Assembly (NCBI RefSeq): GCF_021502675.1
Contig: NZ_JAKFHA010000019.1
Span: 102,320-153,178, forward strand
Length of the DNA: 50,859 nucleotides
DNA from: Yinghuangia soli
GTDB taxonomy: Bacteria > Actinomycetota > Actinomycetes > Streptomycetales > Streptomycetaceae
Direction of reading: 5' to 3'
The position numbers were made by a program, and so were the translations under genes. The stretch's first letter is position 1. Each line of letters begins with the position of its first letter. The notes beneath the pieces were generated by a model. The model saw only the letters and a program-made list of their open reading frames with translations, had not been told where the DNA came from and searched no databases. Shown one piece after another: positions 2,943 to 49,672 of this stretch.

Positions 2943-3023
2943 GGAGCATCACGCCCCTCCTAGAGTCGATTTGCCCCAATAGTCGGTTCCTATCGCGGCG
3001 TGGGCGCAGGGAGGCGGACGCTG

Positions 3024-31277: not shown

Positions 31278-31519
31278 GTCACGCAGATTAACGGTTCGCG
31301 GCCCCCGGGAAACCGGTTTCACAAAATTCACCGCGGATTTGCCTGGCGGTTGCACCGTGCCGCACAGTGGTGTGCGACGGACCCCGGGTAATCACTGGTG
31401 CCGTTAATCCCCCAGCATTTTCGGCAACGAACCATGCCCGGAAGGCATAGATCGCGGAGTGCGGGACGCGGACTGCAGTCCGGCGGCGGCTCGCGCGCGT
31501 ATGCCCCGTACGCCACACA

Positions 31520-31535
31520 CATACGCATGCGTATG
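31520..31535. promoter_or_regulatory. 16-base perfect palindrome CATACGCATGCGTATG
   Basis: Fully self-complementary over 16 bases without a spacer; the symmetry stops on both sides. Size and symmetry fit a dimeric repressor operator (TetR, GntR or LacI type) or another dimeric site. The binding protein is not identified; no TetR gene is adjacent. Confidence 0.55.
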
Positions 31536-31559
31536 GTGAGCCTTGCGTTTCCCCTGGTC

Positions 31560-31571
31560 AGAACGCGTTCT
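31560..31571. promoter_or_regulatory. 12-base perfect palindrome AGAACGCGTTCT
   Basis: Perfect inverted repeat with AAC-GC-GTT at the core, similar to operators of TetR regulators of the KstR/AcrR kind. It lies 25 bases downstream of the 16-base palindrome, so two sites may act together on the operon promoter. Confidence 0.5.
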
Positions 31572-31920
31572 ACTACGAAAGTCCTGGTGAGGGCAGGGTA
31601 ACCAGGGCCGGCCCGCCAACGACCGCAGGGTCGGCCCCCGTACCGGCGGGGTCCCGCGGCCGGCCCGGGCGGGCACCCTTGACAGCCCCGGACGGCGCCC
31701 GCACGATACATCGAGCCGAACCGATGAACGCAATTCCGGTTTACCGGCGCCGTACTCAGGAATTCCGCACCACCTGCTGTGACGTGTTTTATCCAGTGTG
31801 CCAGGTGTTTGTTTCGACTTGTTTGGACGACGTTTTTCTCGCCGCGATCCGTAGCCGTGCGCCGCATTTCCGCGGACCCGGCGCACGGCTGCCGGGCATG
31901 CCCGGGAAGGAGCCGCACCC

Positions 31921-34900
31921 ATGCCGCCTGCCACCGCACGCCGCGATCTCGTGCTCGCCGTCGGCCCGTTCGAGGAGCCGAACGGACCGCTTGCGGTGGC
32001 CGCCCACCGCGCCGGCGCGCTCGGCGTCGTCGACCTCGGCCGGGACCGGGCAAGGGCTTTGGCCGCACTGGCCGAGGTGAGCCGCCGCCCGGAGCGGTCC
32101 TTCGGGGTGCGCGTGCCGCCGGGCTGCCCGCTGGCCCCCGGCGACCTTCCCGAGGCGGCGGATGTCGTGGTCCTGGCGCACGGTTCGCCGTGGCCGGTCG
32201 CCGCGGCCGGGCCCGGGCGGCGCGTCCTCGTCGAGGTCGTCTCGCCCGAGGAGGCCCGGGCGGCGGCCGCGGCCGGCGCGCACGGCCTGATCGCGGTCGG
32301 CCACGAAGCCGGCGGCCGGATCGGCGACTTGACCACCTTCGTGCTGCTGCAGCACCTGGTCGCGGATGCCGGACTGCGGCTTCCGGTGTGGGCCAGGGGC
32401 GGCATCGGCCCGCACACCGCCGCGGCGGCCGTGGCGGGCGGCGCCGCCGGGATCGTGCTGGACACCCAGCTCGCCCTGCTGGCGGAATCCGCACCGTGCC
32501 TGCCGGACCCGGTGGCCGCGGCATTGCGGTCGATGGACGGCGGGGAAACCGCCGTCCTGGAGGGACACCGGGTGTATTCCCGGCCGGATCTGCCGCTGCA
32601 TCGGCTTGCGGATGCAGCGGCGGCGATCGGCGGCGTCGGGTCCGTGCTCGGGGCGCGCGGCCTCGACCGGCAGTTGCTCCCCGTGGGACAGGACGGAGCA
32701 CTGGCCCGACGCTTTGCCGAGCGGTACGGCACGACCGGGCGGGCCGTTCGGGCCGTCCGGTCGGCCGTCACCGCGTCCCTGGCCGCGGCCGTGCGGCATA
32801 GGCCGCTGATGCCCGGCACCGACCGCGAACTCCCGGTGGTGCAGGGCCCGATGACCCGGGTCAGCGACCGCGCGGCGTTCGCCGACGAGGTCGCCGCGGG
32901 CGGCGGCCTGCCGTTCCTGGCGCTCGCCCTGATGGACGGCTCCTCGACCCGGCAGCTCCTCGAGGAGACCGCCGCGCGCCTCGGCGACCGCCGCTGGGGT
33001 GTCGGCCTGCTGGGCTTCGCGCCGCCCGAGCTGCGCGACGAGCAGCTCGCCGAAGTCGCCGCGGTCAAGCCGCCGTACGCGCTGATCGCGGGCGGCCGCC
33101 CGGACCAGGCCGCGCCCCTGGAGGCGGCCGGCATCCGGACCTACCTGCACGTGCCCTCCCCCGGGCTGCTCGACCAGTTCCTGCGTGCCGGGGCCCGCCG
33201 GTTCGTGTTCGAAGGCCTCGAATGCGGCGGCCACGTCGGCCCGCGCGCCAGCTTCCCGCTGTGGGAGGCGCAGGTGGACCTGCTCCTCGCACACGCCCGG
33301 CGCACCGGCCGCGCGTCCGACCTCGACGTGCTGTTCGCGGGCGGCATCCACGATGCGCGCTCCGCCGCGATGGCCGCCGCCGCGGCCGCGCCGCTGGCCG
33401 AACTGGGCGCCCGCATCGGGGTTTTGATGGGGACCGCGTATCTGTTCACCGAGGAGGCCGTGGCGGCCGGGGCGATCCTGCCCGGCTTCCAGCAGGCCGC
33501 GGTCGACTGCCGGGCCACCGAGCTGCTGCAGACCGCACCGGGGCACGCCACGCGCTGCGCGGGGACCCCGTTCGTGTCCGCGTTCGCCGAGGCCCGAGCG
33601 GACCTGGAGGCGCGCGGCGTTCCGCACCGCGAGATGTGGGCGCAGCTGGAGGAGCTGAACCTGGGCCGGCTGCGCATCGCGAGCAAGGGCGTGGTGCGCG
33701 ACGGTGCGGCGCTGGTGCAGGTCGACGAGGAGACGCAGCACCGCGAAGGGATGTTCATGCTCGGCCAGGTCGCCGCCCTGCGGGGTGCGCCGACCACGGT
33801 GGCCGAGCTGCACGGCGAGGTGACCGAAGGGGCGACCGCGTATCTGGCGGCGCGCGCCCAGGTGTTGGGGATCGTGGAGGAGGAGCCGGTGGCCGAGGCC
33901 GAACCGCTGGACGTGGCGATCGTGGGCATGGCGTGCGTGCTGCCCGGGGCCGCGGACCTGGAGGCGTTCTGGCGCAATGTGGTGACCGGCGCGGACGCGG
34001 TGACCGAGGTGCCGCGGGAACGCTGGGACCACGACAAGTACTTCGATCCGGCGGCGGTCAAGGACCCGCTGGGGAAAACGCCGTCCAAGTGGGGCGGGTT
34101 CGTCCCGCCGATCCCGTTCGACGCGCCCGCATACGGCATCCCGCCGGCGTCGCTGGCCTCGATCGAGCCCGCGCAGTTGCTCGCCCTGCACGTCGCCTCG
34201 CGCGCGCTGGACGACGCCGGGTACGGCGACGGCCGCGAGTTCGACCGCGGCCGCACCTCGGTCATCTTCGGCGCCGAGGCGGGCACCGACCTGGCCGGGG
34301 CGTACGGCTTCCGGTCGCTGTACCCGGCCTACTTCGGCGACCTGCCCGCCGACCTGGACGCGCAGCTTCCCAAGCCCACCGAGGACTCCTTCCCCGGCGT
34401 ACTGGCCAACGTCATCGCCGGGCGCATCGCCAACCGCCTCGACCTGGGCGGCGTGAATTACACCGTGGACGCCGCCTGCGCGGCCTCGCTCGCCGCGCTC
34501 GACCTGGCCTGCAAGGAGCTCGTGCAGGGCAGCAGCGACGTGGTGCTGTGCGGCGGTGTGGACACCCACAACGGCATCAACGACTTCCTGATGTTCTCCT
34601 CGGTGCACGCGCTTTCCCCGTCGGGGAGGTGCGCGACCTTCGACTCCGCGGCGGACGGCATCGCCCTCGGCGAGGGTGCCGCCTGCCTGGTCCTCAAGCG
34701 CCTCGAGGACGCGGAGCGCGACGGCGACCGGGTGTACGCGGTGGTCAAGGGCGTCGGCGGGTCCAGCGACGGCCGCTCGCTCGGCCTGACCGCGCCGCGG
34801 CCCGAAGGCCAGCGCCGGGCGCTGGAACGCGCGTACGCCCGGGCCGGCGTCTCGCCCGCGCAGATCGGCCTCGTGGAGGCGCACGGCACCGGGACCGTGG

Positions 34901-37900
34901 TCGGCGACCGCGCCGAACTGGAGACGCTGACCGAGGTGTTCACCGCGCACGGCGCGGCGGCCGGGGGCTGCGCGCTGGGCTCGGTCAAGTCGCAGATCGG
35001 GCACACCAAGTGCGCGGCGGGCCTGGCCGGGCTGATCAAGGCCACGCTGGCGCTGCACCACGGCGTACGCCCGCCGACCCTGCACGTGCGCGAGCCCAAT
35101 GCCGCGTGGGACCCGGGGACCAGCCCGTTCTTCTTCGACGGTCAGGCCCGCCCGTGGGCCGAGGAGGACCCGGCGCTGCGCCGCGCGGGAGTGAGCGCGT
35201 TCGGGTTCGGCGGCACCAACTTCCATGCGGTGCTTGCCGGGCACGCGGCTCCGGTCCGGGAATGCGAGGCCGACGTGCTGGGCAGCGCGGCGCTGGCCGA
35301 GTGGCCTGCGGAGCTGTTCTGCTTCGCGGGCGAGGACCACACCGAGGCGGTGCGCGCGCTCGACAAGCTCGCCGCACTGCTGGACGACCGTGCCCCGCGC
35401 ACCCTGCGCGGGCTCGCCGCCCTGGCGGCGGAGACGGTCGCGGCGGCGGCCGGGGCGCCCGTGCAGGTCGCCCTGGTCGCCGCCGATCTCGAGGACCTGC
35501 GGGTCAAGCTGGCCCGGGCCCGGGACGGCGTGGACGACCCGGCGGGCGAGGTGTTCCACCGGCGCCCGGCCGGGGCCGGCGCGGACCGGGCGGCGCCCGG
35601 GCAGGTCGCGTTCCTCTACCCGGGCCAGGGCAGCCAGCGACCCGGCATGCTCGCCGACCTGTTCGTGGCGTTCCCCGGGCTGCGCGATGTGCTGGGCGAG
35701 GCCCTGCCCGCGACCGTCGAGGCGATGTTCCCGCCCGCCGCGTTCACCGCCGCGGACCGCGAGGCCGCGCACACCCGCATCACCGACACGCGCACCGCGC
35801 AGCCCGCGCTCGGCGTGGCCGAGGTGGCCATGACGCGCCTGCTGGCGAAGCTCGGCGTACGGCCCGACCTCGCCGCGGGCCACAGCTACGGCGAGCTGGC
35901 CGCGCTGTGGGCGGCCGGTGCGTACGACAGTGCGACGCTGCTGCGGCTGAGCAGCGCCCGCGCGGCGGCCATCCTCGGGGCCGCGGGCACCGATCCGGGG
36001 GCGATGGCCGCGGTCGCGGCTCCGGCCGAACGGCTCGGCCCGCTGCTGACGCTGCTCAACCTCAACAACAACCTGATGCCGGGCAGCAACGGCTCCGGGC
36101 CGCGCGGCGGGGTGGTCGCGGCGAACCTGAACACCCCCGCGCAGACCGTGATCTCCGGGCCGACCCCGGCGCTGGAGGCCGCGGTGGCCGCGCTGGAGGC
36201 CGAGGGCATCCAGGCCCGGCGGCTCCCGGTGGCGTGCGCGTTCCACAGCGCGGTGGTGGCCGGCGCGTCCGGCGAACTGGCCCGGGTGCTGGCCGATCTC
36301 CCGGTCGACGCACCGCAGTTCCCGGTCTGGTCGAACGGCACCGCAGCGGCCTACCCGCGCGATGCGGAAGCGGTGCGCGGGCTGCTGGCCCGGCAGGTGG
36401 CCGAGCCGGTGCGGTTCGTCGAGCAGATCGAGGCGATGTACGCGGCCGGGGCCCGCGTCTTCGTCGAGGCGGGGCCCGGCCGGGCGCTGACCGGGATGGT
36501 CCGGGCGATCCTCGGGGACCGCCCGCACACCGCGGTGGCGTGCGACGTGCCCGGCGAGTCCGGCCTGCGCCGCCTGCTGGCGGCGCTGGCCGAACTCGCG
36601 GTCGCCGGTGTGCCGGTGGCGGTCGGCGAGCTGACCCGGGGCCGGTTCGGCAGCGCCGACACGCAGCCCGCCAAGCTGCCCGCGTGGCAGGTGGACGGGC
36701 ATCTGGTCCGGATGGCCGACGGCACGCCGGTCGCGGGCGGGCTGCGGCCCGCCGAGCCGGTCCGGCCTCCGGTGGTCGTGCAGGCCGCCGGAGGCGGGAC
36801 CGCGGCGGCGGCGACCGCACCGGACCCGCGCGAGACCGCGGTACTGCAGTACCTCGCGGGGGCACGGGAGTTGGTCGCGGCGCAGCGCGACGTACTGCTC
36901 GGGTTCCTGGGGACGGGTCCGGCGCCGCAGTACGTGCCGGCACCGGCGGTGCCTGCCGCCGCGTACTCGGCTCAGCAGGCTCCGGCGCCCGCAGCGCAGA
37001 CGGCGGCTGCGGCTCCGGCCGCAGCCGATCGGCAGGCGGCCGCGGCGCAGGCCGAACCGGTCGCCGCCGTAGTGGAGTTGCTGGATGCGGAGCGCGCGCT
37101 GGATGCCGTCCTGGACGTGATCGGCACGCGCACCGGCTACCCGCGCGACATGCTCGACACCGGCCTGGACCTGGAGGCCGACCTGTCGATCGACTCGATC
37201 AAGCGCACCGAGATCATCGGCGAACTCGCCATGCGGCTGGACATGCTGGACGAGGCGCTCGTGGAGCGGCTGGCCCGGGTCAAGACGATCAGTGCGATCG
37301 TCGAGGGCCTGGTGGAGCACGCCGCGGGCCGGGCGGGCGGCGGCGAAGCAACGGAGTCGGCGCCGGCCGCGGACGGGTCGTCCGAAGCCGGCGGATCCGG
37401 AGCGGTGATGGAGGCGGCCGAGGCGGCGTCGGGCTGGTTCGCCCGCCCCGGCGGCGCCGACGAGACCGCGCCGACGCCCGACCCGGACGACGCGTCCGCA
37501 GTCGGCCGCGGAGCGGTTGCCGGATCGGCGGCTGCGTCCGCGGCAGCAGCCGATGCCGGGGCTGTTTCCGCGGACGAACCGGACTCCCGGAGCCGCTGGT
37601 TCGAGCGCGGTGCGGGTGCCGGGCCGGACGCGGGCGCGGGGGCACCGGCCGACCCGGGCGCGAGCGCGGGCGTGGGCGTGGGCGCGGGCGTCGGTGCGGC
37701 GGCGGAGCGGGCCGTGTTCGGCGGGATAACCGCATCGGGCAGCGCCGCCGCGCAGCCCGACGGGGTGCCGCTGCGGCACGTCGTCGACCTCGTCGAATAC
37801 ACCGTCGCGCCGTACACCGCCGAGCAGATCGCCCGGGCGGTCTACGCCAAGTCGGTGGTCCTGATCGCCGACGCGCACGGCATCGCGCTCGCGCTCGCCG

Positions 37901-39318
37901 ATCTGCTGGAGCGGCACGGCGCCTCCGTGCGCATCGCCGAGCCCGGCCAGGCGCTGCCCGACGCGCAGGCCGATGCGCTGGTGCACCTCGGTGCCCTGCG
38001 TCCCGACGAACTCCCGGTTCTGCTGGATGACTTCGGACTGATCCGCGATGCCTTGACGGGCGGTGCCCGGCATCTGGTCCTGGCCACCGGCTGCGGCGGC
38101 GCGTTCGGCCGCGACCCCGGGCAGACCGCGGAGGGCGCGTACGCCGGGATCGGCCTGGCCGGCTTCGGCCGGACCGCGGCGCACGAGTACCCGGACACCG
38201 TCGTGCGGGTCGTGGACGTCGACCCCAAGGAGGAGCCGGGCGCGATCGCCGCGCAGCTGCTCGGCATGCTGGCCGAGGTGCCGGGCGACGGCTCCCCGGT
38301 GGTCGTCGGGCTGGGTTCCGCCGTGCCCGCGGCACCCGGTGCTCCCCTGGTGCGCCGGGCGCTGGACGTGCGGGTGACCGAGATGCCCGCCGCGGCGCCG
38401 GTGCCCGGTCTGGGCCGCGACTCGGTGGTGCTGCTGACCGGCGGGGCGCGCGGGATCACCGCGCGGATCGCGGTCGGGCTGGCCGCGGCGTACGGCTGCC
38501 ACATCGAACTGGTCGGGCGTACCGCGGACACCGGGCCCGAGGACCCGGCGATCGCCGCGGTGACGGACAAGGCCGCGCTGCGGGCTGCGCTCATCGCGGC
38601 CGGGCTGCGCAAGCCGGCCGCCATCGAGGCCGAGATCGCGCAAGTGCTGGCCCGGCGCGAGGTCCGCGCCACGCTCGACGCCCTGGGCCGGCATGCCGCG
38701 TCGGTGCGGATCCACGCCGCCGATGTGCGCGATGCGGCGGCCGTGCGGGACGTGGTGGCCGATGTGTACGCCCGGCACGGGCGGCTGGACGGCATCGTGC
38801 ACGGCGCCGGGATGCTGGACGACCGGCTGCTGAAGGACAAGTCCGAGGAGTCGTTCGCGCAGGTCTTCACCACCAAGGTGGTGGGTGCGCAGGCGCTTGC
38901 CGATGCGGTGCTGGGGCGTCCGGTGCCGGCGCGGCCCGGGTTCATGGTGCTGTTCGGCAGCGTCGCGGGCGTGTTCGGGAACCGCGGCCAGGCCGACTAC
39001 GCGGCCGCCAACGACGCCCTCGACACGCTGGCCCACCTGTGGCGGCACGCGCCCGGTGCGGAGTCGCCCGCGGACCGCGTGCTCGGACTGGACTGGGGTC
39101 CTTGGGCGGCGGCCGGCGGCGGGATGGTGACCGCGGAACTGGAGCGCCACTACGAGCGGCTGGGCATGCCGCTGATCGCCCCGGACGCGGGCGTGGCGGC
39201 GATGCTGGCCGAGCTCGGCTCGGGCACCGGCGCGCAGGCCGTGTACCTGTGCCCGCCGCGGACCGCCGCGGCCGCCGACGCGGGCGACGCTGCGCCGGCT
39301 CCGGAGGCCGGGCGATGA
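31921..39318 (+). CDS. PUFA/secondary-lipid-type polyketide synthase 1: NMO-NMO-KS-AT-ACP-KR
   Basis: A 2465-residue iterative-type synthase. Residues ~1-285 and ~290-645 are two nitronate-monooxygenase/PfaD-like barrels (AVGHEAGGRIGD and GLECGGHVGP phosphate-loop regions). KS ~661-1110 has the complete triad C853, H988, H1028 and the PUFA-type DAACAASL. AT ~1228-1570 has S1322 in GHSYGE and AFHS. A single ACP ~1722-1800 has S1759 in DLSIDSIK, the PUFA-synthase form. A Gly/Ala-rich linker (~1800-1920) precedes a long KR ~1925-2455 (TGGARGI 2173, S2347, Y2360, N2364). Strong AAGGAG site; its stop overlaps PKS2 (ATGA). It should load, extend and reduce an acyl chain, with the barrels as possible enoyl reductases (inference). 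S. coelicolor carries a comparable 'EPA-like' locus. Confidence 0.92.
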   Translation: MPPATARRDLVLAVGPFEEPNGPLAVAAHRAGALGVVDLGRDRARALAALAEVSRRPERSFGVRVPPGCPLAPGDLPEAADVVVLAHGSPWPVAAAGPGRRVLVEVVSPEEARAAAAAGAHGLIAVGHEAGGRIGDLTTFVLLQHLVADAGLRLPVWARGGIGPHTAAAAVAGGAAGIVLDTQLALLAESAPCLPDPVAAALRSMDGGETAVLEGHRVYSRPDLPLHRLADAAAAIGGVGSVLGARGLDRQLLPVGQDGALARRFAERYGTTGRAVRAVRSAVTASLAAAVRHRPLMPGTDRELPVVQGPMTRVSDRAAFADEVAAGGGLPFLALALMDGSSTRQLLEETAARLGDRRWGVGLLGFAPPELRDEQLAEVAAVKPPYALIAGGRPDQAAPLEAAGIRTYLHVPSPGLLDQFLRAGARRFVFEGLECGGHVGPRASFPLWEAQVDLLLAHARRTGRASDLDVLFAGGIHDARSAAMAAAAAAPLAELGARIGVLMGTAYLFTEEAVAAGAILPGFQQAAVDCRATELLQTAPGHATRCAGTPFVSAFAEARADLEARGVPHREMWAQLEELNLGRLRIASKGVVRDGAALVQVDEETQHREGMFMLGQVAALRGAPTTVAELHGEVTEGATAYLAARAQVLGIVEEEPVAEAEPLDVAIVGMACVLPGAADLEAFWRNVVTGADAVTEVPRERWDHDKYFDPAAVKDPLGKTPSKWGGFVPPIPFDAPAYGIPPASLASIEPAQLLALHVASRALDDAGYGDGREFDRGRTSVIFGAEAGTDLAGAYGFRSLYPAYFGDLPADLDAQLPKPTEDSFPGVLANVIAGRIANRLDLGGVNYTVDAACAASLAALDLACKELVQGSSDVVLCGGVDTHNGINDFLMFSSVHALSPSGRCATFDSAADGIALGEGAACLVLKRLEDAERDGDRVYAVVKGVGGSSDGRSLGLTAPRPEGQRRALERAYARAGVSPAQIGLVEAHGTGTVVGDRAELETLTEVFTAHGAAAGGCALGSVKSQIGHTKCAAGLAGLIKATLALHHGVRPPTLHVREPNAAWDPGTSPFFFDGQARPWAEEDPALRRAGVSAFGFGGTNFHAVLAGHAAPVRECEADVLGSAALAEWPAELFCFAGEDHTEAVRALDKLAALLDDRAPRTLRGLAALAAETVAAAAGAPVQVALVAADLEDLRVKLARARDGVDDPAGEVFHRRPAGAGADRAAPGQVAFLYPGQGSQRPGMLADLFVAFPGLRDVLGEALPATVEAMFPPAAFTAADREAAHTRITDTRTAQPALGVAEVAMTRLLAKLGVRPDLAAGHSYGELAALWAAGAYDSATLLRLSSARAAAILGAAGTDPGAMAAVAAPAERLGPLLTLLNLNNNLMPGSNGSGPRGGVVAANLNTPAQTVISGPTPALEAAVAALEAEGIQARRLPVACAFHSAVVAGASGELARVLADLPVDAPQFPVWSNGTAAAYPRDAEAVRGLLARQVAEPVRFVEQIEAMYAAGARVFVEAGPGRALTGMVRAILGDRPHTAVACDVPGESGLRRLLAALAELAVAGVPVAVGELTRGRFGSADTQPAKLPAWQVDGHLVRMADGTPVAGGLRPAEPVRPPVVVQAAGGGTAAAATAPDPRETAVLQYLAGARELVAAQRDVLLGFLGTGPAPQYVPAPAVPAAAYSAQQAPAPAAQTAAAAPAAADRQAAAAQAEPVAAVVELLDAERALDAVLDVIGTRTGYPRDMLDTGLDLEADLSIDSIKRTEIIGELAMRLDMLDEALVERLARVKTISAIVEGLVEHAAGRAGGGEATESAPAADGSSEAGGSGAVMEAAEAASGWFARPGGADETAPTPDPDDASAVGRGAVAGSAAASAAAADAGAVSADEPDSRSRWFERGAGAGPDAGAGAPADPGASAGVGVGAGVGAAAERAVFGGITASGSAAAQPDGVPLRHVVDLVEYTVAPYTAEQIARAVYAKSVVLIADAHGIALALADLLERHGASVRIAEPGQALPDAQADALVHLGALRPDELPVLLDDFGLIRDALTGGARHLVLATGCGGAFGRDPGQTAEGAYAGIGLAGFGRTAAHEYPDTVVRVVDVDPKEEPGAIAAQLLGMLAEVPGDGSPVVVGLGSAVPAAPGAPLVRRALDVRVTEMPAAAPVPGLGRDSVVLLTGGARGITARIAVGLAAAYGCHIELVGRTADTGPEDPAIAAVTDKAALRAALIAAGLRKPAAIEAEIAQVLARREVRATLDALGRHAASVRIHAADVRDAAAVRDVVADVYARHGRLDGIVHGAGMLDDRLLKDKSEESFAQVFTTKVVGAQALADAVLGRPVPARPGFMVLFGSVAGVFGNRGQADYAAANDALDTLAHLWRHAPGAESPADRVLGLDWGPWAAAGGGMVTAELERHYERLGMPLIAPDAGVAAMLAELGSGTGAQAVYLCPPRTAAAADAGDAAPAPEAGR

Positions 39319-42300: not shown

Positions 42301-44153
42301 GGTCCGTGCCGGACCTGCGCGGATTCCCAACACCGAGCCCGGTGCTCGCGGCGTTCGCGGCGATCCTGGACGAGGCCGGCGATGCGGCGGCGCGGACGAT
42401 GGACGCGTGGCAGCTCGCCGGCCCGGGAGCCGCAGCCGTACCCGCGCCCGCGCCTTTGGCTTTGCCTTTGCCGGGGGCAGCCGCCGGGGCGGGTGCGGCG
42501 TCGCCGCAGCCGGCCGCCGCAGAGGAGCCGCCGCTGCGCTTGTCGCAGCGCCGCGAGTTCTCGCTCCGCAATCTCCCCTACGTAGCCGACCACTGCATCT
42601 ACGAGCAGCATGACGACTGGGCGGACGACTCCGACCGGTTCCCGGTGGTCCCGATGACCACGCTGCTCGATCTGACCGGCGAGGCAGCCCGTGCGCTGGT
42701 GCCCGGGCGCGTGGTGTCCGGGTACGACGAGGTCCGCGCGCTGCGCTGGCTGCCGGTCGCACCCGCGACCGATGCCGAGATGACCGCGACGCGGCTGGAC
42801 GCGGACCGGGTGCGGGTGGAGATCGCCGGGTTCACGTCCACGGTGGTCCGCCTCGCCGAGGCCGCCGAAGCACCGCCGAAACCGGACCGGACCCCGCTGA
42901 CCGGCGAGGTGCCGGCCCCGGTGCGGGCCGCGGCGCTGTACGCGGACCGCTGGATGTTCCACGGCCCGGGGTTCGCGGGGGTCGACGAGGTGACCGCGGT
43001 CGGCGACGACGGGATCCGCGGTGTGCTGCGCACGCTGCCGGCGCCCGGCGCGCTGCTCGATGCCGCGGGCCAACTCTTCGGCCACTGGATGCAGTTGCGG
43101 CTGCCCACGGACCGGCTGGTGTTCCCGGTGTCGGTCGACCGAGTGCGCTTGTACGGGCCGCCACCGCGCAACGGCGACCGGCTGCTGGCCACCGCCCGGA
43201 TCCGGCACGTGACGGCCACGACCGTGCGCGGCGACGTCGAGCTGTGCGATGCCCGGGACGGGATGGTCCGGGCCCGGCTCCTCGGCTGGACGTACCGGCG
43301 CTTCGCGGCGGACGAGCGCGTGTGGCCGATGAAGTTCACCCCGCACACCACCGGTGTGGGCGAGCCGCAGCCGGAGGGCTGGGTGCTCGTGCGCACCCGC
43401 TGGCCGGACGCCGCTTCGCAGGAGCTGGTGATGCGCCGCTATCTGGGTGCCGCCGAGCGGGCCGAGTTCGCGACCCGGCCGCCGCGTACCCGGTCGGGGT
43501 GGCTGCTGGGCCGCATCGCGGTCAAGGACGCGGTGCGGCGCGCGCTCTGGGCCCGCGGCGAAGGGCCGATCTATCCGGCGGAGGTGCGCGTGGCCAACGA
43601 CGAGAACGGGCGTCCGCTCGCGGAACGCGTTTTCCCCGGCGAGGAGTTCCCGGTCCGCCGGGACAAACTGCACGTGTCGCTCGCGCACAAGCACCGCCTC
43701 GCGGTGGCGTTCGCGGACCGGGTGCCGGTCGGCATCGACATCGAGGCGCTGACCGGGCATCCGGAGTCCCTGGAGCAGGTGGCGCTGGCCCCGGACGAGC
43801 GCAGCCTCCTGGACCGGCTGGCCGCCGGGGACCCGGACGCCCGGCAGGAATGGCTGGTCCGGTTCTGGTGCGCCAAGGAAGCCGCCGGCAAGGCGGACGG
43901 CACCGGGCTGGCCGGCCGGCCGGCGCAGCGCCGGGTCGTGCGCGCCGACGAGGACGGCCTGGTCGTCGCGGTGCCCGGCGGCCCGGACCGCGAGGTGCGG
44001 ACCAGGACCGTCGCCGACGGCGCGGACCGCTACGTCGTCGCCTGGACGTCCTCCTCCCCGGCCTCGTCCCCGTCCGCCCCGCCGGCCGCGGGCGGCCACC
44101 TGACGATCCCCTCCTCTGTCACCGTCCCCCCGAGCCCCCTGGAGTCGCCGTGA
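39315..44153 (+). CDS. PUFA/secondary-lipid-type polyketide synthase 2: KS-AT-DH-PPTase
   Basis: A 1612-residue partner synthase. KS ~17-480 keeps C228, H366 and H406, so it is catalytic, not a chain-length factor. The AT-like domain ~632-915 has S700 in GHSLGEW and GFHTPM, but FPGLEPE replaces the usual FPGQGSQ; a HENCPHQCVVCGP stretch resembles heterocyst-glycolipid-type ATs. The hot-dog DH ~1075-1330 has H1093 (VADHCIY) and D1249, with VVPMT and FHGPGF. Residues ~1370-1605 are a fused Sfp-type phosphopantetheinyl transferase: D1475/E1477 in GIDIE and W1518-K1521-E1522 in WCAKEAAGK. It would activate the ACPs of this system. Start and stop overlap both neighbours (ATGA, GTGA). Confidence 0.92.
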   Translation: MTGTRGSGRGGGDQGPRPTDAAIVGIGAVFPSAPDAPAFWTNIEKGVDAITDVPPNRWDPDVYFAPEAATGPVHADRFYCRKGGFVDEYATFDPTRFGIMPAAVDGAEPDQLLALRTTAEAIADAGGEDRLPDRSRIGVVFGRGGYMGVATARLDQRVRTAHQLVSVLRQVAPEFDEARLGAIREAFQSALGPERPDASIGLVPSFTASRIANRLDLGGPAYTVDAACATSLLAIDHAVAELASGRCDAVIAGAVHHCHIATLWSVFTQLRALSPAMRIRPFDRAADGTLISEGTGAVVLKRWADALRDGDRVYAVVRGVGVASDGRAASLMSPLADGQQRALDRAWQAAGLDPRPAGALGLLEAHGTGTPLGDEVELDTLARVFGPGGGGGPDVVLGSVKSMIGHAMQASGMAGLLKAVYAVHHATLPPTLNVDDPHPGLARTRMRLIGESEPWEAGPGEVRRAAVNAFGFGGVNTHVIVEEPPVGARVVPLPVDRLRIGLAAEPAAAAAGDTSPDAVGPARTATSEPPVPDLSDVRSPDLLMLTAADAAEMAALLADPRLAEGDPAARVRAAAGLGRADGPCRLALVDPTPRRLELAARVVARGEPWRGRSDLWFTPRPLLGPHAAVPGRVAFLFPGLEPETQPPLHDVADAFGMARLPAQDTNDIVGRALEALGSGRLLAAALDRLGVRADVLAGHSLGEWTAMVVAGMYPTSAVDVFLDSLRPGSLAVPDLVYAAVACGAPRAAAACQAVGGVVVSHENCPHQCVVCGPADAVRRVLEVLRTDGVLGQELPFRSGFHTPMWEPYLDQVRDAFGRLPLRAAEVPVWSATSVAPYPGGAAEVRDLTIRHLLEPVRFGALAERLYESGVRAFVQVGAGSLGGFVDDALRGADVLTVAAHGARQPGLAGLVRVQAALWAEGLAAASQRDGSDGPAEVQTGRGSAVGGSGSSAPGGGGKAPVRRTGPAVRLDLGSPIVRLDADAVPAAPPASAPVLRSVPDLRGFPTPSPVLAAFAAILDEAGDAAARTMDAWQLAGPGAAAVPAPAPLALPLPGAAAGAGAASPQPAAAEEPPLRLSQRREFSLRNLPYVADHCIYEQHDDWADDSDRFPVVPMTTLLDLTGEAARALVPGRVVSGYDEVRALRWLPVAPATDAEMTATRLDADRVRVEIAGFTSTVVRLAEAAEAPPKPDRTPLTGEVPAPVRAAALYADRWMFHGPGFAGVDEVTAVGDDGIRGVLRTLPAPGALLDAAGQLFGHWMQLRLPTDRLVFPVSVDRVRLYGPPPRNGDRLLATARIRHVTATTVRGDVELCDARDGMVRARLLGWTYRRFAADERVWPMKFTPHTTGVGEPQPEGWVLVRTRWPDAASQELVMRRYLGAAERAEFATRPPRTRSGWLLGRIAVKDAVRRALWARGEGPIYPAEVRVANDENGRPLAERVFPGEEFPVRRDKLHVSLAHKHRLAVAFADRVPVGIDIEALTGHPESLEQVALAPDERSLLDRLAAGDPDARQEWLVRFWCAKEAAGKADGTGLAGRPAQRRVVRADEDGLVVAVPGGPDREVRTRTVADGADRYVVAWTSSSPASSPSAPPAAGGHLTIPSSVTVPPSPLESP

Positions 44154-44482
44154 CCGCCGAGACCGCAGTACCCCCGACCGCGGCGTACGCCGCCGACGCC
44201 GTGCTCACCGAGGTGGTCGGCCTGCTCGTCGAGGTCGTCGGGGACGAGATCCTCATCGCCACCGAGATCGACCGGGACTCGTCGTTCAACGAGGACCTGG
44301 CTGTGGAGAGCATCGAGTTCGTGGCGCTGGCCGAGAAGTTGGAGGCGCGCTACGGCGCGCGGGTGGACTTCATGGCGTTCCTCTCCGAGATGGAGATGGA
44401 CGAGATCCTCACCATGACGGTGGGCACGCTCGTCGACTACATCGCCGCGCAGCCGGCCGGCGAACCGGGCGGGGAGGTCTGA
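44150..44482 (+). CDS. Free-standing acyl carrier protein
   Basis: A 110-residue ACP. The phosphopantetheine serine is S54 in LAVESIEFVAL, preceded by the helix ADAVLTEVVGLLVEVVG. It differs from the LSIDSIK type of the ACP within PKS1, so it may be a second carrier for priming, transfer or tailoring. Residues 72-90 (FMAFLSEMEMDEILTMTVG) resemble ACPs of hybrid NRPS/lipid clusters. It starts with GTG overlapping the PKS2 stop, with GGAG upstream, and is followed after 1 base by the hydrolase gene. The PPTase fused to PKS2 is its likely activator. Confidence 0.9.
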   Translation: MTAETAVPPTAAYAADAVLTEVVGLLVEVVGDEILIATEIDRDSSFNEDLAVESIEFVALAEKLEARYGARVDFMAFLSEMEMDEILTMTVGTLVDYIAAQPAGEPGGEV

Positions 44483-44483
44483 G

Positions 44484-45383
44484 ATGGCCGACGTCCAGGC
44501 GAACGGCCTGCGCTTCCACGTCCAGCACCTGCGCGGCGGCCGCGCGTCGACCGACCGGCCGACCGTGGTGCTGCTGCACGGGCTGGTCCTCGACAACCTG
44601 TCCAGCCTCTACTACACGCTCGCCCCGCCGATCGCGCGCGCCGGCTTCGACGTCCTGCTGTACGACCAGCGCGGGCACGGCATGTCGGACGGCGCGCCGA
44701 CCGGGTACGACGTGGACACCGCGGTCGACGACCTGGCCGCGGTGCTCAAAGCCTGCGGGGTCACCGGGCCGGTGCACCTGCTGGGCAACAGCTACGGCGG
44801 CCTGATCGCGCTGCATGCGGCGTACCTGCACCCGGAGTCGGTGGCCAGCCTGATCCTGGTGGAAGGGCAGTGCCTGGACCCGGCGCACAGCGGGCTGCGG
44901 CCCGCGGCCGGCGGGTACCCGGGCGGCTGGGTGGAGGACGTCGCCAACACCTTGAACCTGATCGCGATCGGCCTGGAGTGCAACCCGCTGGGCGGCGACC
45001 TGGGGTCGCGCGGCGCGCGCAAGGCGGCCCGCATGCGGGCGGGCGCGGACACGCTGCTCAACCAGACGACGCTCATCGAGGACATCTCGACCGTACGGCT
45101 GCTCACCCCGGGCGAGCTGGCGCAGGTGAAGTGCCCGACGCTCGCGCTGTACGGCGGGGCGTCCGACCTGGTCGACTCGGGGCCGATGCTGGCCGGGCAA
45201 CTGCCGGACTGCACCCTGGAGATCTTCCCGGGGGCGGCGCACGCGCTGCTGCGCGACGCGCCCAAGGAGCTGCTGGCGTCGGTGCTGCGGTGGCTGGAGA
45301 CGCACTCCCCCGCGGCGCCGCAGTTCACCGGCAGTGCGGGGGGCTACCGGCTGCCCGCGTCCGGCGGCGAGGGCGCCCCGTGA
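44484..45383 (+). CDS. Alpha/beta hydrolase (putative release or acyl-transfer enzyme)
   Basis: A 299-residue alpha/beta hydrolase. It has the oxyanion segment LLHGLVLDN, LLYDQRGHGMSDG, the nucleophile elbow GNSYGG with S103, an acid in GASDLVDS (~D229) and the catalytic H253 in GAAHALLRD. A lid (residues ~130-200) is enriched in Gly/Asn/Leu. In this setting it most likely releases or transfers the finished acyl chain from the ACP, as a type II thioesterase-like or esterase-type enzyme (inference). GGGGAGG precedes its ATG, 1 base after the ACP stop. Its stop overlaps the GTG of the glycosyltransferase gene. Confidence 0.85.
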   Translation: MADVQANGLRFHVQHLRGGRASTDRPTVVLLHGLVLDNLSSLYYTLAPPIARAGFDVLLYDQRGHGMSDGAPTGYDVDTAVDDLAAVLKACGVTGPVHLLGNSYGGLIALHAAYLHPESVASLILVEGQCLDPAHSGLRPAAGGYPGGWVEDVANTLNLIAIGLECNPLGGDLGSRGARKAARMRAGADTLLNQTTLIEDISTVRLLTPGELAQVKCPTLALYGGASDLVDSGPMLAGQLPDCTLEIFPGAAHALLRDAPKELLASVLRWLETHSPAAPQFTGSAGGYRLPASGGEGAP

Positions 45384-46543
45384 GATGCCTGTTCGTCGTG
45401 CCGCCGTTCGCGGGGCACGTGAACCCCGCGGTCGCGGTGGCCGCCGAACTGACCGCGCGGGGCCACACGGTGGCCTGGTGCGGCCCGCCCGAGGTACGCC
45501 GGCTGCTGCCGCCGGACGCCGTCCTGCATCCGACCGCGGAGGCGCCGGACGGCGGGTTCGGTGCGCTGCACGCCCGGTGGCAGGGGCTGCGCGGGGTGGC
45601 CGCGCTGCGCTTCCTGGTGGAGGACGTCCTGGTGCCGCTCGCGTACTCGATGCGGGTGGGCGTGGACGACGCGATCCAGGCGGTGCGCCCGCATGTGGTG
45701 CTGAGCGACCAGCAGGCGTTCGCGGGCGCGATCGGGGCGGAGCTGCACGGGCTGCCCTGGGCCACGTCGGCGACCACGTCGGTGGAGTTCAGCCGTCCCT
45801 TCGAGGGCTTCCCGAAGGTGCATGCGTGGGTGCGCGACCGGATCTGCGCGGTGGCTGCCGACGCCGGTCTCGACGACGGCTGGGACCCGCGCTTCTCCCG
45901 GCACTTGGTGCTGATCTTCTCCACGCCGGTCCTGGCCGGCACGGAGTCCGAACCGCCGGCGCACCACCGGTACGTGGGTCCGGCGTTCGGCGCGCGGCCC
46001 GCTCCCGTCCACTTCCCCTGGGAGCGGCTCGCCGCCGACCGCCGCCGCGTCCTGGTCTCTCTGGGCACCCTCAACAGAGAGGCCGGGACGCGGTTCTACC
46101 CGGCGGTGGTGGCGGCGACCCGGGAGCTGGCGGACCGCGTGCAGGTGGTCCTGGCGGCCCCGGAACACCTGGTCGGGTCCGGCGACGAGCATGTGCTGGC
46201 ACGTGAGTTCGTGCCGCAACTCGACCTGCTGCCGCACCTGGACGCGGTGGTCACACACGGCGGGCACAACACCGTGTGCGAGGCGCTGGCGTTCGGGCTG
46301 CCGCTGGTGGTCGCGCCGATCCGGGACGACCAGCCGCTGGTGGCCCAGCAGGTGGTGGCGGTCGGGGCGGGCGTACGGGTGCGGTTCGGGCGGGCCAGCG
46401 TGCCGGAGATCCGGGACGCCATCACCGCGGTCCTGGATCAGCCGGATTACCGCGCGGGGGCGTTGCGGGTGCGCGATTCGTTCGCGGCGGCCGGCGGCGC
46501 GACTGCGGCGGCGAACGCGCTGGAATGGCTGGAGGCGTCATGA
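45380..46543 (+). CDS. MGT/GT1-type glycosyltransferase
   Basis: A 387-residue GT-B fold glycosyltransferase. The N-terminal half begins FVVPPFAGHVNPAVAVAAEL, in which H13 is the presumed catalytic base. The C-terminal half has the nucleotide-sugar site THGGHNTVCEALAFGLPLV and DDQPLVAQQV, typical of the macrolide glycosyltransferase (MGT/UGT) family. It should add a sugar to a hydroxyl of the lipid product. Sugar identity cannot be read. It starts GTG overlapping the hydrolase stop, and its TGA overlaps the methyltransferase ATG, so it belongs to the operon. Confidence 0.9.
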   Translation: MRCLFVVPPFAGHVNPAVAVAAELTARGHTVAWCGPPEVRRLLPPDAVLHPTAEAPDGGFGALHARWQGLRGVAALRFLVEDVLVPLAYSMRVGVDDAIQAVRPHVVLSDQQAFAGAIGAELHGLPWATSATTSVEFSRPFEGFPKVHAWVRDRICAVAADAGLDDGWDPRFSRHLVLIFSTPVLAGTESEPPAHHRYVGPAFGARPAPVHFPWERLAADRRRVLVSLGTLNREAGTRFYPAVVAATRELADRVQVVLAAPEHLVGSGDEHVLAREFVPQLDLLPHLDAVVTHGGHNTVCEALAFGLPLVVAPIRDDQPLVAQQVVAVGAGVRVRFGRASVPEIRDAITAVLDQPDYRAGALRVRDSFAAAGGATAAANALEWLEAS

Positions 46544-48393
46544 GCTTTGGTTTCACGCCCTTCCCGTGGCTGGCGCTGATCGTGCTGCTGGTGCTGTTCT
46601 TCGGCAGCTTGAAGTCGCGGGGGCGGCTGCGTCGGCTGCCTGTGCTCTCCGTTTCCGCTGCGCCGGCCGACGGTGATTCCTCGGAATTCCGTGCCGTGAC
46701 CGCCGTCGGGGTGCGGTTGGAGGCGGAACTCGTCGGCGCCGCGGCTGCGTACGCGCGGCGCGAGGGACTGCTCGTCCTCGACCTGGTGCCGGGAGATATG
46801 CCGGTCGAGCCGCTCATGGACCTGCTGCACGATGTGGATCCGGTGGCCTTCCGCACGGATCCGGTCGCGGCGGGGCGCGGGGCGGGGCATGCGCTGCTGG
46901 TGCACGAGAGCGTCTTGGCGCGGGCCGAGGTCGACCGCCTTGAAGGCCTCTCGACCGTCGAACTGATCGCCATGACAGCGAAGTTGAAGCGGTACGCAGC
47001 GCGCGGGACGGGCCACGCGGTGGCCCCCGGACTCGCGGCGATCGCGCCCGACCCGCGCATGGTGAAGGCCCGGATGCGGGCGCTGGGCGCTCCGCCGGCC
47101 GCGGTGCTGGCCGGGTACGTCGGCGAGGCGGGCGCGTTTGCGGGCGCGACGTACACGACGCCGTTCTGGGGCCTGCTGGCCTTGGCAACGTGGTGGCTGC
47201 AGCCGTACGCCGTCCTCACCGGGCAGACTGCAGTCCGGCCGCGCGGGGCGCATTTCTCGACGCTGCTACGGCCGTTCCTGGCGGTGTGGCGTTGGGTGCG
47301 GGCGGTCTCCGGTCCGGCCGCGCCGCCCGCGATGGACAAGGCCGAATTGGCCGTGAAGCGCGCGGGGTACGCCGAGGCGGTGGCGGGCGGGATCGAGCAC
47401 TTCTTCGAGGAGCGCCGCGACGACTGCCCCTGGTGCGGGTCCGGGGATCTGCGCGTACGGGTGCGCCTCAGGGACCGCCTGCAGGCGAAGCCGGGCCGGT
47501 TCTCCCTGGAGCAGTGCCGCACGTGCGGGCACATCTTCCAGAACCCGCGGCTGTCGCTTGCCGGACTCGATTACTACTACCGGGACTTCTACGACGGGTA
47601 CGGCGCGCGGGGCGCGGAGGCGATGTTCGCCACCATGCGGCGCCAGTACAACGGGCGTACCACGCTGGTGAAGCGGCATGCGTCGCCCGGGCGTTGGCTC
47701 GACGTGGGCACTGGGCACGCGCACATGTGCCTGATCGGGAAGTCGGCCCTGCCCGACACCGTCTTCGACGGCCTGGACCTGGGGGCGGGCGTCGAAGAGG
47801 CGGCCCGGCGCGGCTGGGTCGACCATGCGTACGTGGGGCAATTCCCGGACCACGCGGACACCTTGGCCGGGGCGTACGACGTGGTGAGCATGAACCACTA
47901 CCTGGAGCACGCCCGCGACCCGTTCGCGGAACTCGACGCGGCCGCGAAGGTCGTGCAGCCGGGCGGGCACCTGCTGGTCGAGATCCCCGACCCGGAGTGC
48001 TGGTACGCCAGGCTGCTGGGCCGGCACTGGCACCCGTGGTTCCAGCCTCAGCACCAGCACTTCATCCCGGTCGGAAACCTGAGCGACGCGCTGGCGGCAC
48101 GCGGGTTCACGGTGGTCGAGGTCGAACGCGGCCCGTCCCACCAGGGCGGGCTGCTCACCGCCGCGCTCACCCATGTGGCCACCGGCCTGGCCCCGGACCC
48201 GCAGGCCCCGTGGCGGCCGCGACCGGCCGGGGTGCTCGGACGGACCCGGCGGGTGGGCGTCATCGTGCTGCTGATCCCGGCGTACATCGCCGCCGCGGTG
48301 CTGGATGCGGTCGGCGGGAAGGTCGCGGGCCGCTTCGGCCGGGCGGGCGGCAGTGACGCGTACCGCTTGTTGGCCCGCAAGGACCCGGGCTGA
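46540..48393 (+). CDS. Membrane-bracketed zinc-ribbon SAM methyltransferase
   Basis: A 617-residue multidomain protein. It has an N-terminal membrane helix (8-21), an unassigned soluble domain (~45-185), and a hydrophobic pair (~206-228). A four-cysteine zinc ribbon follows (C296, C299, C326, C329), then a class I methyltransferase with SAM loop D388VGTG, YDVVSMNHYLEHA and GGHLLVEIPDPECW (Methyltransf_13-like). The C-terminal helix lies at ~571-592. Such a fold would methylate a membrane-bound substrate, here plausibly the glycolipid sugar or lipid (inference). The unassigned domain contains DVDPVAFRTDPVAAGRGAGH. ATG overlaps the glycosyltransferase stop. Alternative: a glycan/lipid-carrier methyltransferase from another pathway. 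Confidence 0.82.
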   Translation: MSFGFTPFPWLALIVLLVLFFGSLKSRGRLRRLPVLSVSAAPADGDSSEFRAVTAVGVRLEAELVGAAAAYARREGLLVLDLVPGDMPVEPLMDLLHDVDPVAFRTDPVAAGRGAGHALLVHESVLARAEVDRLEGLSTVELIAMTAKLKRYAARGTGHAVAPGLAAIAPDPRMVKARMRALGAPPAAVLAGYVGEAGAFAGATYTTPFWGLLALATWWLQPYAVLTGQTAVRPRGAHFSTLLRPFLAVWRWVRAVSGPAAPPAMDKAELAVKRAGYAEAVAGGIEHFFEERRDDCPWCGSGDLRVRVRLRDRLQAKPGRFSLEQCRTCGHIFQNPRLSLAGLDYYYRDFYDGYGARGAEAMFATMRRQYNGRTTLVKRHASPGRWLDVGTGHAHMCLIGKSALPDTVFDGLDLGAGVEEAARRGWVDHAYVGQFPDHADTLAGAYDVVSMNHYLEHARDPFAELDAAAKVVQPGGHLLVEIPDPECWYARLLGRHWHPWFQPQHQHFIPVGNLSDALAARGFTVVEVERGPSHQGGLLTAALTHVATGLAPDPQAPWRPRPAGVLGRTRRVGVIVLLIPAYIAAAVLDAVGGKVAGRFGRAGGSDAYRLLARKDPG

Positions 48394-48622
48394 GCCGGGC
48401 TGCAGCGGCGCGACCCGAGTCGGCATGGGCTCCAGCCGGGCCCGGCCCGACCGAAACGAACCGAGCCGGCATGGACCCGGGACAAGCTCGGCCGCCCCAC
48501 CGGCACGTGCCAGGTCTGCGCGAGCAAGAGCAAGCCCTTCCAGGCGAGTCCGTATCGGCCTTCACCCGGTCCGACTCCATCTGTCGACCCACCCATCCCT
48601 CCCCACGAGAGGAACGTCCCTG

Positions 48623-49672
48623 ATGTCCTTGATGGACCAGCGCGACGCAGCACCGGTCTTGAGAGTGGTGCCGTACACCTTCGCGCAGGCGTTCGGGTAC
48701 GCCCCTGCGGGCGTCTGGGCCGCGCCGTACGCGCTGCGCTTGTCGGGGGTGCCCGGCCGCAACGGGATCGTCACCGCGGTCGGCTGGCAGGCGGTGATCG
48801 CCGCCGCCCCGCGCACCGACGGGCTGCTGCGCGTCGGCTCACTGAACCGGCCGGGCGACGCGGTCGAGATCGCGATCCACGAGACGGGCCACGAAGTACC
48901 GTCCTGGGCAGCGCCCATCGTCGACACCGCACACGCCCTCGGGCGCGTCGCCGGACCGCAAGCGGGCATCGACATCGTCCTGCACGCCGACCTGCCCGAG
49001 GCTGCCGGTCTGGCCCCGTCGGCACCGCTGTCCTGCGCCACCGCGCTGGCGTGGACGGCGTTCCACGGCCCGCAACTCGCGGTCGCCGCACTCGACGCCC
49101 TGCTGCGGAACGTGGTGCCGCCCCCGTCCGACACCGCCGACGCGGACGCCTTGCGCAGCGCGGTGCTGTACGGCGGCGACGAGCGTGCCCTCCTGGTCGG
49201 CCCGGCCGGCCCCACGGGCGAGGTCCCCCTCGAACTGAACGCCGCAGGCCTGCGCGTGATGCTGGTGATCCCCCGCGACAAGGGCGTACCCCACACCCCG
49301 ATGGCCTCCGTCGTGGAATCCCTGCGCGGTGCCCGCGACGAGACGGAACGCGCCCAACGCATGGAAGCGTTCCTACGGGATCGCGAACTCCCCCGCGGCC
49401 TAAGCCTGCTGACCGCCTCCCACCTCTCCCGGGTACCCGGGTACGGCACCGGCTGGGCCGAAGCCGATGCCACGGTCGACGCCGTGAAGTTGGCCGGCGC
49501 GGTGGGCGCCCGACTGGCAGGCGGCGGAGGCTCGGCAGTCGCGGCGTTCGTCCCGGGATCGCTGCTCCCCGGCATCCGGGCCGCGGTCGTGAACGCCTTC
49601 CGCGACCGAGGCCGGCTCACGCCGAGATTTCTGACCGCGTCAGGAGGCCCTGCCGCAGCCCCGGTGACGTGA
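48623..49672 (+). CDS. Degenerate galactokinase-like GHMP protein
   Basis: A 349-residue protein with the layout of a galactokinase. The N-terminal segment FGYAPAGVWAAPYALRLSG stands where the sugar-binding GEHTDY motif should be, E126AAGLAPSAPLSCATALAW where the ATP-binding GLSSSA motif is, and GARLAGGGGSAVAAFVPG (~residues 287-305) is the third GHMP motif. The first is unrecognisable, and the second lacks consecutive serines and the usual acidic partner, so catalytic phosphorylation is doubtful. The start ATG has GAGAGGA upstream. It lies 229 bases downstream of the methyltransferase, so membership of the operon is uncertain. It may be a binding or regulatory paralogue, or act on an unusual substrate. 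Confidence 0.65.
   Translation: MSLMDQRDAAPVLRVVPYTFAQAFGYAPAGVWAAPYALRLSGVPGRNGIVTAVGWQAVIAAAPRTDGLLRVGSLNRPGDAVEIAIHETGHEVPSWAAPIVDTAHALGRVAGPQAGIDIVLHADLPEAAGLAPSAPLSCATALAWTAFHGPQLAVAALDALLRNVVPPPSDTADADALRSAVLYGGDERALLVGPAGPTGEVPLELNAAGLRVMLVIPRDKGVPHTPMASVVESLRGARDETERAQRMEAFLRDRELPRGLSLLTASHLSRVPGYGTGWAEADATVDAVKLAGAVGARLAGGGGSAVAAFVPGSLLPGIRAAVVNAFRDRGRLTPRFLTASGGPAAAPVT

Follow-up and report, generated by a model that had tools for sequence, protein, structure and literature searches.

What does a six-gene operon near the end of a contig of Yinghuangia soli make? The window analysed here is a stretch of 50,859 nucleotides (assembly GCF_021502675.1, contig NZ_JAKFHA010000019.1, positions 102,320 to 153,178 of the forward strand), which forms the last 50.9 kb of its contig in a genome of 9.7 Mb. 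On the forward strand, at 31921-48393, it carries genes for two polyketide synthases (PKS1 and PKS2), a free-standing acyl carrier protein (ACP), an alpha/beta hydrolase, a GT1 glycosyltransferase (GT) and a zinc-ribbon methyltransferase (MT). The operon is genuine, is well conserved and belongs to a type that is known but has yet to be characterised, and its sequence indicates that it is quite probably an actinobacterial Type M secondary lipid synthase with a glycolipid tailoring set. Secondary lipid synthases were catalogued in 2011, a handful of their products are known (PMC13291983), and naming the product here would settle a question open since 2011.

The gene ends, read directly and tabulated, give junctions of -4 bases for PKS1/PKS2 and PKS2/ACP, +1 for ACP/hydrolase, and -4 for hydrolase/GT and GT/MT. 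These are exactly the four stop/start overlaps and one 1-base gap claimed in a preliminary description of this DNA, whose operon-like packing of six genes is thereby borne out; its domain layouts for PKS1, PKS2, the ACP, the hydrolase, the MGT-type GT and the zinc-ribbon MT were confirmed by Pfam and NCBIfam scans. A ribosome-binding-like GGAAGGAG precedes the ATG of PKS1, and sigma-70 scans revealed no promoter or consensus at either end of the operon.

Conservation of gene order was assessed with a bait consisting of the dehydratase-phosphopantetheinyl transferase (DH-PPTase) stretch of PKS2, matched at 1e-10 across the class and at 1e-40 for two genus-level counts. Class-wide, the bait matched 54 of 394 genomes, the window's own included, and 13 of 138 genera. 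From 72 places listed, one of them the window, 30 were taken together with that of G010; the final 43 regions also draw on seven genomes, the named contigs L009, L011 and L026, two Streptomyces plasmids and the window, with weaker second places in family f20 (inferred Frankiaceae) left out except G057b. Genes in these regions were labelled by BLAST to the window proteins. PKS2, ACP and hydrolase are consecutive in 42 of the 43 regions, the exception being L026, which ends inside PKS2, and PKS1 heads the row in 40. The full order PKS2-ACP-hydrolase-GT recurs in 41, which excludes chance; besides L026, the only exception is G114, where a Sulfotransfer_3 match (L135:3397-4359, E 5.8e-12) occupies the GT place behind PKS1-PKS2-ACP-hydrolase and suggests a sulfated product variant.

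The MT lies directly after the GT in 25 regions and divergently upstream of PKS1 in four. Two GTs are found in three regions and two MTs in one; G032 (L110/L111) carries four MTs, three of them in tandem after the GT, and G104b (L120/L121) five, with four in tandem after the GT, the last MT lying further along in each; such arrays suggest multiply methylated sugars. An MT that is absent, single, double, four- or fivefold or divergent depending on the region was rejected as an invariant core member. The head-group gene varies (sulfotransferase, second GT, number of MTs) and the core is constant. The six proteins show co-varying pairwise identities (rho 0.48-0.83; for each of the 15 pairs, none of 500 permutations reached the observed value) in a test that left out P60 and includes shared host ancestry; this co-variation reflects co-inheritance, not function. 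The sugar-bearing product expected in the preliminary description is supported by this co-variation and by the position of the GT next to the hydrolase; the recurrence of a release enzyme with a GT restricts the product to the glycolipid class and opens it to testing. Glycosyl and methyl tailoring had also been taken as special to this copy, a view that does not hold, sugar tailoring being the rule of the type. That is itself a useful result, pointing to a glycolipid, and the type recurs widely among actinobacteria.

PKS1 (31921..39318, +) is resolved by domain scans and residue alignment as ER-like(dead)-ER-KS-MAT-ACP-KR, a fused enoylreductase (ER)/pfaA-like subunit that also bears ketosynthase (KS), malonyl acyltransferase (AT), ACP and ketoreductase (KR) domains. 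Its first FabK/NMO-like TIM-barrel stretch (31921..32640) is without the catalytic His, seen in none of 36 relatives (Arg in 25, Leu in 4, Val in 4, Pro in 2, Ser in 1), and its second FabK/NMO-like ER domain (32827..33834), with an ECGGH motif, keeps the His in all 36; the pair is therefore probably one working and one structural barrel. Both ER matches are to FabK/NMO models; with the N-terminus scanned in two pieces they reached 30.5 and 42.7 bits, above the cut-off of 28, but a whole-protein scan at 1e-3 did not show them. Paired ER domains are also reported in thraustochytrid polyunsaturated fatty acid (PUFA) synthases, with the His kept in both (PMC13311796). The remaining domains are KS1 (33910..35235; Cys-His-His in 36/36), the malonyl-type AT1 (35602..36525; GHSYGE, malonate-binding Arg in 36/36), the internal ACP (37102..37242; LSIDSIK, one copy here and 1-3 in relatives) and the KR (38398..39108; Ser-Tyr-Asn in 34/36, the other two gapped). 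The internal ACP is weak in Pfam, at 16 bits against a cut-off of 20.8, and its LSIDSIK Ser is present in 35 of 36 relatives, with one gapped.

PKS2 (39315..44153, +) is a KS-AT-DH-PPTase subunit by domain scans. Since Cys-His-His is intact in 39 of 39 copies, KS2 (39375..40763) is not a chain length factor (CLF). AT2 (41355..41954; GHSxGEW) does not conserve the malonate-binding Arg in the residue alignment, this position being Asp in 30, Arg in 7, Asn in 1 and Lys in 1 of the 39. Because bacterial PfaB, reported to be a long-chain terminal acyltransferase, is also without this Arg (PMC12895367), the resemblance suggests a PfaB-like role for AT2, moving a finished long acyl chain. The PKS-type dehydratase (42552..43313) keeps His and Asp in 39/39, and domain scans of the operon match its dehydratase to PS-DH/PKS_DH_N only. 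The fused PPTase (43599..43961), identified by Pfam and a motif check, has P1a and P1b-prime motifs and no P0; its Asp is kept in 35/39 and its Lys in 36/39, and among the 39 copies P1a occurs in 36, P1b-prime in 35 and P0 in 1, the window reading NGRP and VSLAH.

The free-standing ACP (44150..44482, +; DLxLES-like) has its Ser in 42 of 42 copies, and the alpha/beta hydrolase (44484..45383, +), a presumed release (or macrolactonising) enzyme by domain scan and residues, keeps its His in 42/42 and its nucleophile Ser in 40/42. The GT1/MGT-family GT (45380..46543, +) was assigned by domain scans, residues and PDB matches that include oleandomycin GT and YjiC, with its His in 39/41 and two gapped. 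The MT (46540..48393, +) comprises an N-terminal domain of about 290 residues, a zinc ribbon (CPWCG...CxxCGH; four Cys in 28 of 29 MTs, the 29th incomplete), a SAM domain matching Methyltransf_23 and, by hydropathy, a C-terminal hydrophobic helix, present in 26 of 28 MTs; the enzyme is probably membrane-associated. The N-terminal domain (46540-47400 in the window, with a hydrophobic start) matches no Pfam family. It is common to the window and the inferred Frankia copies, and about half of the other MTs (350-400 aa) are without it.

The kinship of the two synthases was examined in a KS tree of 119 rows, built by a quick search with SH-aLRT support only and covering 29 of the 43 regions, the rest being incomplete or close relatives. 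Its references, without enediyne KS, were mostly labelled by model score and place, and the program flagged long branches (among the second-KS/CLF-like rows that follow PfaA-type genes) as well as unusual amino-acid composition in several references. The 29 KS1 all fall in a single clade (SH-aLRT 100), which includes the inferred Frankia copies G057 and G107, inside a clade of 55 rows (96) shared with eight references that score over the PfaA cut-off, the Beijerinckia Type P KS and other-phyla KS1. Three of the eight references come from the class of a Chromatiales genome and five are cyanobacterial (presumed HglE-type); one of the eight reaches the cut-off only together with its in-frame neighbours. 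All 29 KS2 likewise form one clade (100) inside a 39-row clade (99) with other-phyla partner KS, and the 55-row and 39-row clades are united with a support of 85. The eight presumed modular KS of the source genome make up a clade of their own (99); the second KS and CLF-like rows found after PfaA-type genes also group separately. The preliminary description had set its reading against a grouping of both KS with modular PKS; neither groups there, which rules out a plain modular PKS and supports a lipid-type iterative synthase. The KS model aligns to the presumed modular KS (L001-L008) as two separate segments, with some 50 model positions (~125-178) left out that lipid-type KS do contain, possibly a diagnostic insertion of the latter.

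Among the named secondary lipid synthases, Type M is the best match for the operon, judging from its genes and domains. Type M is described from Frankia, Actinosynnema, Renibacterium and S. avermitilis, its product unknown, and Type L from S. coelicolor (PMC3098273, Shulse and Allen 2011). As in Type M, an ER is fused to the pfaA-like protein and a PPTase to the second, pfaB/C-like protein; fused pfaDA and pfaBC-PPTase genes are likened to the Renibacterium locus by El Arnouki Belhaji et al. (PMC13291983). Shared features thus comprise the two-subunit core, the ER and PPTase fusions as in Renibacterium, the PPTase motif class and an actinobacterial range with Frankia, with layout compared by text description. 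The motif class is that defined as M-T, with P1a x(G/D)xP, P1b-prime hShxH and no P0 (PMC3098273). In the KS tree, which holds no named Type M sequence, the operon's KS group with those of the inferred Frankia copies, Frankia being a Type M genus. The operon differs in that a hydrolase, a GT and often an MT travel with the type here, whereas the word 'glycosyltransferase' is absent from the main text of PMC3098273. In the literature searched, which left most subscription journals outside, no report of a GT linkage or a product for this type was found. The 'EPA-like' (eicosapentaenoic acid-like) locus of S. coelicolor, offered in the preliminary description as the comparator, is Type L, and published typing and layout, compared by description, rule it out as the closest locus.

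Other lipid synthases share parts of this architecture. The heterocyst glycolipid synthase (Type F, hgl island) has in common with the operon the KS1 clade (presumed HglE) and the pairing of an iterative lipid synthase with a head-group glycosyltransferase, but Type F is described as having a KS-CLF-AT subunit, hglC, and no dehydratase/isomerase (PMC3098273), and the operon is without a CLF subunit and possesses a hydrolase, an MT and a PS-type DH. The Type P phenolic-lipid synthase of Beijerinckia indica (pBIND02, L165) is the nearest named KS1 relative outside the type, at 54.5% over the KS in the plasmid collection, and a GT and an ABC transporter adjoin its locus. It differs in that a single very large PKS is accompanied by a PPTase gene of its own and by two KS III-like (type III PKS) genes, with no ACP-hydrolase-GT cassette seen. 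Enediyne PKSs are single KS-AT-ACP-KR-DH-PPTase proteins, a layout distinct from the two proteins with two KS-AT pairs found here.

Built on the domains, intact catalytic residues, gene linkage and kinship seen in the sequence, a biosynthetic route can be proposed in which we infer chain length, hydroxyl pattern, the role of AT2, the order of tailoring, the sugar and the site of methylation. The PPTase of PKS2 would arm the ACPs, AT1 would load malonyl units, and KS1 and KS2 would extend the chain iteratively. The KR would reduce every beta-keto group, with DH and the second ER finishing only some cycles, to give a long chain that is largely saturated and bears at least one hydroxyl; because KR, DH and ER are present but no FabA-like DH, cis-PUFAs are unlikely and a saturated hydroxylated chain is the simplest product. 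AT2 may then transfer the finished long acyl chain, as reported for PfaB, the hydrolase would release or cyclise it, the GT1 enzyme would add a sugar (probably beta-glucose) to a hydroxyl, and the probably membrane-associated MT would O-methylate the glycolipid.

Several observations weigh against parts of this glycolipid assignment. GT1/MGT enzymes also glycosylate macrolides and other polyketides, and a GT by itself is no proof of a lipid. AT2 has the GHSxG His in 39/39, where PfaB has an essential Tyr (PMC12895367), and in the Yinghuangia subclade the AT2 Arg is shifted by one residue, so that AT2 may have a malonyl role. The dead first ER half is called from one motif, hydropathy is the sole ground for membrane association of the MT, and the nucleophile Ser is replaced by Cys in two of the 42 hydrolases. 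No MT was found in 14 of the 43 regions; in four of them the sequence stops too soon to tell, but in the other ten it continues for at least 2.3 kb. WS/DGAT neighbours (two loci by Pfam, two more by BLAST clustering) and an acyl-CoA ligase neighbour (one locus) mark a minority of loci. No product, transcript or mutant was found for the operon.

A more specific proposal, which we put forward tentatively and consider somewhat doubtful, is that the gene clusters still lacking for the fattiviracin and cycloviracin macrodilactone glycolipids are the Type M operons, the present one among them. GT1 enzymes invert and form beta bonds. Fattiviracins and cycloviracins, from Streptomyces and Kibdelosporangium, are ester-closed dimers of glucosylated trihydroxy long-chain acids, whose chain length is put at different values in the text and the table of the source, from C22 to C33 overall, and the outer sugars of cycloviracin are O-methylated (PMC4365757); glucolipsin A and cycloviracin B1 are reported to have only beta-glycosidic bonds (PMC13047676). 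On this proposal, the synthase would make C22-C33 hydroxy acids with hydroxyls from KR-only cycles, the inverting GT1 enzyme would add beta-glucose, the hydrolase would join two glucosyl-acyl units via the glucose 6-hydroxyl, and the MT would methylate outer sugars. The operon offers an enzyme class for each step, a good stepwise fit made at the level of enzyme classes alone, and glucolipsin, likewise an ester-closed dimer but with a 2-methyl iso-branched C18 chain (PMC4365757), fits less well. The same chassis would swap head groups by lineage, carrying a sugar, the sulfate of G114 or, in other phyla, a form associated with a phosphodiesterase, placing one old acyl machine under a large family of amphiphiles, with a second envelope lipid in Frankia. 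No gene cluster for fattiviracin, cycloviracin or glucolipsin was found in the literature searched. If true, the link would assign genes to natural products of the 1990s and open many variants to genome mining.

It is rather unlikely that the product is not a lipid at all but a glycosylated soluble polyketide, antibiotic-like and perhaps a partly reduced polyol or polyene, with the GT serving macrolide-type tailoring or self-protection. The MGT family, known for macrolides, the PKS-type rather than FabA-like DH, and a LysR regulator and plasmid-borne copies that look like secondary metabolism would all suit such a compound. However, KS1 is kin to lipid synthases, the synthase has a reducing set with the ER His invariant, the MT carries a hydrophobic helix, and WS/DGAT and acyl-CoA ligase genes adjoin a few loci, all of which favour the Type M glycolipid synthase.

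The role of such a glycolipid raises another possibility, compatible with the Type M assignment, that it is an envelope or oxygen-barrier lipid parallel to heterocyst glycolipids, clearest in Frankia vesicles; this appears improbable. The DH-PPTase signature is present in 13 of 13 genomes of the inferred Frankia genus (G057), but also in 113 of 392 genomes sampled of the inferred Streptomyces genus (G010), both at 1e-40 and with only some loci inspected gene by gene. The genus of G010 is taken to be Streptomyces because it is very rich in species, belongs to the window's family and has related copies on named Streptomyces plasmids. Streptomyces are not known to form such vesicles, and occurrence well beyond Frankia favours a broader role, such as that of a surfactant, envelope or antibiotic glycolipid. 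A type I PKS is reported to be conserved in all Frankia strains compared and duplicated in F. alni (PMC3848822), with which the two loci carried by G057 agree. Vesicle-envelope mutants without hopanoid-operon mutations exist and their genes are still unknown (PMC12501873), although the Frankia envelope is described as hopanoid and these mutants are without any link to this locus. The Frankia operon would supply a candidate here, for a further envelope lipid.

The weakest alternative, a true PUFA (EPA-like) synthase feeding membrane lipids with the sugar genes as passengers, can draw on the LSIDSIK motif, the TIM-barrel ER and omega_3_PfaA as best NCBIfam match of both megasynthases, yet is scarcely credible given a PKS1 score of 887.3 bits against a curated PfaA cut-off of 1010.1, the missing CLF and FabA-like DH, and a GT that is consecutive with the hydrolase almost throughout. 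Domain scans detected neither a KS-CLF didomain, in keeping with the intact KS2 triad, nor tandem FabA-like dehydratase/isomerase domains, the sole dehydratase being PKS-like. The 'PUFA-type' label of the preliminary description is therefore not tenable in its strict sense, and a strict PUFA synthase was ruled out by the PfaA score, CLF and DH. The resemblance to PUFA synthases (pfaA-E, Types A/B) extends to the KS1 clade, the SIK-type ACP, the TIM-barrel ER, the malonyl AT and a second AT without malonate Arg; the differences are the lack of a CLF and of tandem FabA-like DH, one ACP (1-3 in relatives), a PS-type DH and a score under the PfaA cut-off.

Models built from the actinobacterial proteins were used to trace the wider family in L012-L034, a set of 23 loci, many short, from other phyla. 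An ACP was matched in 14 of them, a hydrolase in 10, a GT in two and an MT in none; the GT matches are in L012 (Bryobacterales) and L017 (Herpetosiphonaceae), two each, and PfaA-/Hgl-type reference regions gave no hydrolase, GT or MT match. Each of the six gaps scanned between ACP and hydrolase (L012, L014, L016, L017, L025 and L031) contains a type I phosphodiesterase (PF01663), followed in L016, L025 and L031 by a protein of about 490 aa without a Pfam family, and in L018 ACP and hydrolase are adjacent. From these match counts and phosphodiesterase gaps, the acyl core and hydrolase appear to be old, with the enzymes for the head group apparently added later. MacB- or HlyD-type export genes lie nearby in L018, L016 and L014.

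Several neighbouring features complete the picture. A LysR-type candidate pathway regulator (30390..31277, -; Pfam HTH_1 and LysR_substrate; start codon uncertain) is divergent from the operon, and its homologues adjoin the operon in G001, G005, L009, G201 and G162. The intergenic stretch between it and PKS1 (31278..31920) is the presumed operon promoter by position only. Downstream, the interval given in the preliminary description, which runs to 49672, takes in a gene it did not list, starting 229 bases past the MT and encoding a GHMP/galactokinase-like protein (48623..49672, +); found in seven of the 43 regions, window included, it is a probable associated gene. A true galactokinase is not supported, as its nucleotide-binding motif differs from copy to copy and no galactokinase sugar motif was seen; a pseudokinase of the GHMP fold is possible. 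A long antisense open reading frame opposite PKS1 (31789-39414) was taken to be an artefact of GC bias.

Copies of the six-gene operon also reside on large linear Streptomyces plasmids typed as mobilizable, L059 (NZ_CP108735.1) and L060 (NZ_CP108492.1), with IS3 transposase genes nearby, a possible route of horizontal spread. Two further lipid-related proteins are encoded in the window, one of LPG_synthase_C type (phosphatidylglycerol lysyltransferase; 3000-5897) and an acyl-CoA dehydrogenase (22756-23898); among ten relatives compared, the dehydrogenase lies near the operon in the sister species G001 alone and the LPG_synthase_C protein in none.

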